Source: Minisyncoccota bacterium
GTDB lineage: Bacteria; Patescibacteriota; Minisyncoccia; Minisyncoccales; GBS-2
Length of the DNA stretch: 39,640 bases
Reading direction: 5' to 3'
Assembly: GCA_938023415.1 (NCBI GenBank)
Contig: CALHEE010000019.1
Span: forward strand, 1-39,640
Both the position numbers and the translations under genes were made by a program. Positions within the stretch are counted from its first letter, which is position 1, and each line of letters opens with the position of its first letter. The notes beneath the pieces are model-generated. The model saw only the letters and a program-made list of their open reading frames with translations, was not told the DNA's origin and ran no database searches. This document shows positions 13,746-19,538 of the stretch, in pieces.

Positions 13746-13816
13746 GCGGGCATAGTATAACGGCAGTACGTGACCTTCCCAAGGTCAAGGTGTGGGTTCA
13801 ATTCCCATTGCCCGCT
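13746..13816 (+). tRNA. tRNA-Gly (anticodon CCC)
   Basis: GCGGGCA/TGCCCGC acceptor, TGACC-TTCCCAA-GGTCA anticodon arm, GTGGG-TTCAATT-CCCAT T-arm, U73; CCA not encoded. Confidence 0.93.
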
Positions 13817-19222: not shown

Positions 19223-19243
19223 TTTTTGTCAAAAATTAAAAAT

Positions 19244-19314
19244 TCGGGCTGCCGGGAGTTGCACCCGGGTCTTGCCCACCCCAAGGGCAAATACTACTGT
19301 TGTACTACAGCCCG
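19244..19314 (-). tRNA. tRNA-Pro (anticodon GGG) with non-canonical D/T loops
   Basis: Minus strand CGGGCTG TA GTAC AACAGTA GTAT T TGCCC TTGGGGT GGGCA AGAC CCGGG TGCAACT CCCGG CAGCCCG A; C1-G72 and A73 as in bacterial tRNA-Pro; CCA not encoded. Confidence 0.85.
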
Positions 19315-19538
19315 ATGGATTCTTTTTTAAATATTGTTTTAATGCATTGGGTACAGGCTAAGATTTTTTTTCCGGCAAATTTCTTTAAAAAAACTCTTTT
19401 TACTTTTGAAGGAATCTTCACCCATTGGAGATTGGGAGATTGTTTTTGTTTTGTGGTGGGATTATACTTTCCTCTTAGCTTGACCCTTTTGACCACTATG
19501 TTTGTTCCCTTTCCACAAATGAGACATTTTCTTGCCAT
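19305..19538 (-). CDS. rpmB: 50S ribosomal protein L28
   Basis: MARKCLICGKGTNIVVKRVKLRGKYNPTTKQKQSPNLQWVKIP...KILACTQCIKTI, Zn-type L28; stop codon lies in tRNA-Pro 5' end. Confidence 0.85.
   Translation of the reverse strand: MARKCLICGKGTNIVVKRVKLRGKYNPTTKQKQSPNLQWVKIPSKVKRVFLKKFAGKKILACTQCIKTIFKKESIGL

Follow-up and report, generated by a model that had tools for sequence, protein, structure and literature searches.

In a normal tRNA, residue G18 of the D-loop pairs with pseudouridine 55 (Psi55) and intercalates between T-loop residues 57 and 58 (PMC4810234); published accounts call this G18-Psi55 contact invariant or universally conserved (PMC4810234, PMC6337575). A stretch of 39,640 nucleotides from a Minisyncoccota bacterium (contig CALHEE010000019.1, the whole stretch being called the window below) holds a tRNA-Pro(GGG) gene, at 19244..19314 on the minus strand, that has neither G18 nor U55. 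The question raised by this locus is whether such a gene is an error, a tRNA diverted from the ribosome, or an ordinary tRNA with another elbow. We find that it very probably encodes a working translation tRNA in which, judging from sequence comparisons, G18-U55 is replaced by a compensating A18-G55, as one case of an elbow that recurs across Patescibacteria.

ARAGORN called tRNA-Pro(ggg) at 19243-19315 on the minus strand, and the Rfam tRNA model matched 19244-19314 with 53.7 bits, above its gathering score. Read on its own strand, the gene consists of CGGGCTG, TA, GTAC, the D-loop AACAGTA, GTAT, T, TGCCC, the anticodon loop TTGGGGT, GGGCA, AGAC, CCGGG, the T-loop TGCAACT, CCCGG, CAGCCCG and a final A, with no encoded CCA. 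The proline marks are all present (cloverleaf, anticodon GGG, C1-G72, A73, T33 and a purine at 37), so that the identity elements listed in the original prediction, C1-G72, A73 and the anticodon, are indeed intact. The T-loop (19257..19263) is assigned as T54 (19263), G55 (19262), C56 (19261), A57 (19260), A58 (19259), C59 and T60, and the D-loop (19295..19301), also placed by the ARAGORN structure, as A14, A15, C, A18 (19298), G19 (19297), T and A21. Both partners of the 18-55 contact are thus changed and G19-C56 is kept; the earlier statement that the D-loop lacks G18 and G19 is right for G18 and wrong for G19, which is there. An internal control is provided by tRNA-Gly(CCC) (13746..13816, plus strand), whose loops AACGGCA and TTCAATT have the canonical G18G19 and TTC, as had been reported. 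The tRNA-Pro(GGG) gene is single copy in its genome, and CCC and CCU account for 80 of the 159 proline codons in ten open reading frames of the window.

The source genome (619 kb, 96.7% complete) was the one for which whole tRNA sets were compared, using 45 tRNAs taken from Rfam tRNA matches above the cut-off and each read with ARAGORN. A T-loop with TGC, that is G55, was found in 5 of the 45, namely Pro(GGG), Tyr(GUA), Cys(GCA), Leu(GAG) and one Met(CAU), and the D-loops of exactly these five read AG where the others have GG. The remaining 40 of 40 combine GG with TTC (G18/U55), and hybrid 18/55 combinations are absent among the 45. If five were matched on five at random, the probability would be 1/C(45,5) = 8×10−7. 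Together with the presence of the same pair in orthologues elsewhere, this bears out the original claim of co-adaptation rather than error; the idea of an oddity specific to proline does not survive, as four other tRNAs of the same genome share the swap. A11:U24 is a mark of bacterial initiator tRNAs. It is present in the Met(CAU) with G55; the other Met(CAU), whose elbow is canonical and whose 11-24 pair is C11:G24, resembles an elongator. Tyr, Cys and the initiator-type Met each have one gene. As to the rest of this genome, tRNA-Asn is absent from the 45 tRNAs read, and a weak tRNA-like gene (L075, contig C20, 19335-19408) has a broken anticodon stem, scores 34.2 bits and is not called by ARAGORN.

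The comparison with relatives gave the same picture. In the order, tRNA-Pro(GGG) orthologues are mostly G18/U55, four are A18/G55 (G110, G046, G058 and G061, two of which additionally have C54), and mixed states were not seen. Both states of tRNA-Pro occur within family f46 and again within family f19. The G061 gene (L055) also has a T-loop that reads as eight bases (TGCAACTT). For other tRNAs the balance differs: most of the order has tRNA-Tyr in the A18/G55 state, variable states are seen in tRNA-Thr(GGU) and Trp, and across the phylum A18/G55 is found in 12 amino-acid classes, sole-decoder tRNAs included. The original prediction named, as one thing that would refute it, that all tRNAs of the clade vary in this way; this holds in part, since many do vary, but always as a pair.

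To follow the pair more widely, 389 phylum genomes and 246 genomes of the order (near-duplicate order rows omitted) were scanned with a pattern that requires G55 but accepts any base at 18, and matches were validated by pairing of the D-stem and anticodon stem. Among the matches listed, 160 G55 tRNAs were validated (148 distinct sequences), 159 with A18, one with U18 and none with G18; in the rejected, non-tRNA matches listed, base 18 varied, being A in 17, T in 10, G in 8 and C in 3. The validated ones listed comprise Cys (60), Met (52, of which 45 have A11:U24), His (15) and several Thr, Pro, Gly, Val, Gln and Arg tRNAs. Scanning the other way round, for A18 combined with U55 and A57, yielded one real tRNA in the 389 phylum genomes, a tRNA-His of G327, where the matching G55 pattern yielded 73 G55 tRNAs, 72 of them with A18. 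Apparent AG matches of the reverse scan in G456, G449 and G520 were discarded, being in fact G18G19 preceded by A17. The two rare exceptions met in these scans, A18/U55 in G327 and U18/G55 in G433, are each a tRNA-His. As hybrids are nearly absent, positions 18 and 55 behave like a base pair, and on this covariation between sequences A18-G55 is a compensatory alternative elbow.

Reading tRNAs in full, with no pattern selection, gave 215 G18/U55, 53 A18/G55 and 20 G18/C55. The last is a third state, with TCC in the T-loop and GG in the D-loop, seen in 20 distinct sequences of tRNA-Thr(GGU, UGU), Ile(GAU), Ala and Trp (loci L139, L140, L163, L164, L170 and L182 among them); it may represent an intermediate step, or else a further stable pair. 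Among A18/G55 tRNAs, T54, C56 and A58 are kept in 92 of 94 and G19 is nearly always unchanged. Residue 57 is A in 92 of 94, compared to 102 of 215 canonical tRNAs.

How could an A18-G55 elbow be built? Outside tRNA, the T-loop motif is often UGNRA, where a common pairing partner of the G is an A from outside the loop, giving a composite GNRA structure (PMC2258182). The TGCAA of tRNA-Pro has the U-G-N-R-A form with the closing U-A of a T-loop, and the outside partner is an A in 159 of the 160 listed matches in which base 18 had been left free. The near constancy of A57 also suits a GNRA-like turn. By this analogy, T54-G55-C56-R57-A58 would fold as a UGNRA-type T-loop and A18 would supply the outside A of the composite fold, probably sitting where G18 did and pairing with G55; G19-C56 would then still offer the ribosome and RNase P its exposed face. 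Compared to the canonical elbow, the loops, the positions, G19-C56 and the T54-A58 closing pair are the same, but the 18-55 pair is A-G instead of G-U or G-Psi, and G55 is not convertible to pseudouridine by TruB. Compared to the UGNRA R1 lonepair triloop/T-loop motif, the sequence fits and the outside A is available; the difference is that this motif is known in rRNA and riboswitches, whereas here it would lie within tRNA, where UUCRA with an outside G is the rule. The tRNA-Pyl and type II mitochondrial tRNAs also deviate from the G18-Psi55 contact, but they lose G19-C56 as well or use other contacts, while in the present case one pair is swapped in a normal cloverleaf.

The history of the swap was examined for tRNA-Thr(GGU) with a TrmD tree built from 53 loci that have this tRNA nearby, a set partly drawn from a Tyr-selected scan and not selected on Thr. 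The Thr states are scattered over the tree, and at least 15 changes between A18/G55 and G18 states are required, of which well-supported branches impose 7. A18/G55 tRNA-Tyr was sought in 85,488 species genomes, for Tyr alone and with one exact spelling. This returned 73 stretches, mostly from Parcubacteria-type metagenome-assembled genomes (MAGs) (Staskawicz-, Nealson-, Yanofsky- and Wildermuthbacteria). At least 6 stretches come from Melainabacteria-like genomes, with A18/G55 in Tyr and once in His, inside a conserved Gln-Leu-Tyr-His-Asp cluster; the swap in Melainabacteria tRNA-Tyr is an independent occurrence. Another hit, L189, lies on a contig of 3.1 kb from a MAG labelled 'Deltaproteobacteria'; it has a tRNA-Tyr of patescibacterial type and may be contamination.

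A possible reason for such freedom lies in TruB, the Psi55 synthase (PF01509). No TruB match was found in the source genome, and TruB is present in 23 of 119 relatives (not detected in 96), compared to 14 of 14 control genomes and 97 of 147 genomes of the phylum. Most of the order therefore probably lacks pseudouridine 55. Within the order, matches to the A18/G55 pattern occur in 70 of the 96 TruB-less genomes and in 8 of the 23 TruB-positive ones (p = 0.001, uncorrected for relatedness). The absence of TruB from most of the order might lift the constraint on U55 and ease the swap, a weaker step than those on the fold. TruB loss was also considered as the sole cause and rejected, given that the swap occurs in Melainabacteria and in many genomes with TruB; it may ease the switch while being neither necessary nor sufficient.

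Putting these results together, we lean towards the reading that a second, interchangeable elbow, a composite GNRA fold made of G55-C56-R57 and A18, replaces G18-Psi55 in a large part of Patescibacteria, in initiator and elongator tRNAs, flips in both directions as a unit, and is eased by loss of Psi55 synthesis. Several points weigh against explaining the tRNA-Pro by a compensating A18-G55 elbow. The geometry of A18-G55 is drawn by analogy, covariation being what was observed. The association with TruB is weak phylum-wide (p = 0.09), 16 of the 97 TruB-positive genomes of the phylum sample carry the swap, and the Melainabacteria with the swap retain TruB. Finally, the A18/G55 and G18/Y55 forms of Thr(GGU) also differ in D-loop length and T-stem, so that part of the flips may be exchanges of whole genes between lineages. 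That last point, with the scatter of Thr states on the TrmD tree, is what speaks for a spread of the swap mainly through entire tRNA genes, by horizontal exchange or gene conversion, the flips then not being independent mutations. We regard this as rather unlikely, although it deserves attention: the swap is present in at least 12 amino-acid classes, each on its own background, the A18/G55 tRNA-Pro genes of the source genome and G110 retain the local Pro sequence (96% identity), and exchange accounts for the spread of the pair, not for its strict pairing.

The remaining explanations are less likely still. Neutral decay of an unconstrained elbow, with 18 and 55 drifting independently, would suit reduced genomes in an order mostly without TruB, where a C55 variant exists too; it predicts G18/G55 and A18/U55 hybrids, however, of which 0 and 1 were seen, and almost every case keeps T54, C56, A58 and G19, which makes it very improbable. 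The original prediction had invoked staphylococcal tRNA-Gly for peptidoglycan synthesis, so that the tRNA-Pro would be a specialised molecule evading EF-Tu for non-ribosomal use of proline. Like the tRNA-Pro, staphylococcal non-proteinogenic tRNA-Gly has a GTGC T-loop. Its D-loop is non-standard, as in A18/G55 tRNAs, and in the tRNA-Pro both loops are indeed altered. The staphylococcal molecule, however, is a spare isoacceptor with weak EF-Tu T-stem pairs, whereas A18/G55 tRNAs are ordinary decoders: the same change is found in Tyr, Cys, initiator-type Met, His, Trp and Thr tRNAs, and single, essential tRNAs of the source genome (Tyr, Cys and initiator-type Met) carry it. Moreover, G19 is retained, whereas staphylococcal non-proteinogenic tRNAs have lost both G18 and G19, with UU or CU instead (PMC4052509). 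We consider EF-Tu evasion even harder to believe than decay. A sequencing or assembly error in the window found no support and has a negligible chance of being the explanation, the same pair being present in the orthologue of an independent genome (G110) and recurring across hundreds of further records.

Directly upstream of tRNA-Pro(GGG), on the same strand, lies rpmB, encoding ribosomal protein L28 (19305..19538, minus strand). This position of rpmB is kept in many relatives, which supports the orthology of the tRNA-Pro genes compared above. In the window, the rpmB reading frame extends 10 nt into the tRNA gene (19305-19314, minus strand), its TAG stop being tRNA nucleotides 8-10, so that RNase P processing of the tRNA 5′ end would cut the rpmB message ahead of its stop.

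No description of A18-G55 in a tRNA, or of unusual elbows in Patescibacteria, was found in the open-access literature, a search that left most subscription journals and preprints outside, and the passages searched of a review of non-canonical natural tRNAs (PMC7609411) contain no such case. On the practical side, tRNA finders trained on UUC and GG would under-score such real tRNAs, and A18/G55 is a ready elbow for orthogonal tRNAs. A clade that swaps 18-55 freely, yet only pairwise, amounts to a natural double-mutant experiment on tRNA folding and on how the ribosome, RNase P, EF-Tu and IF2 recognise the elbow. The swap also offers a testable reason for Psi55, through its loss where TruB is missing.
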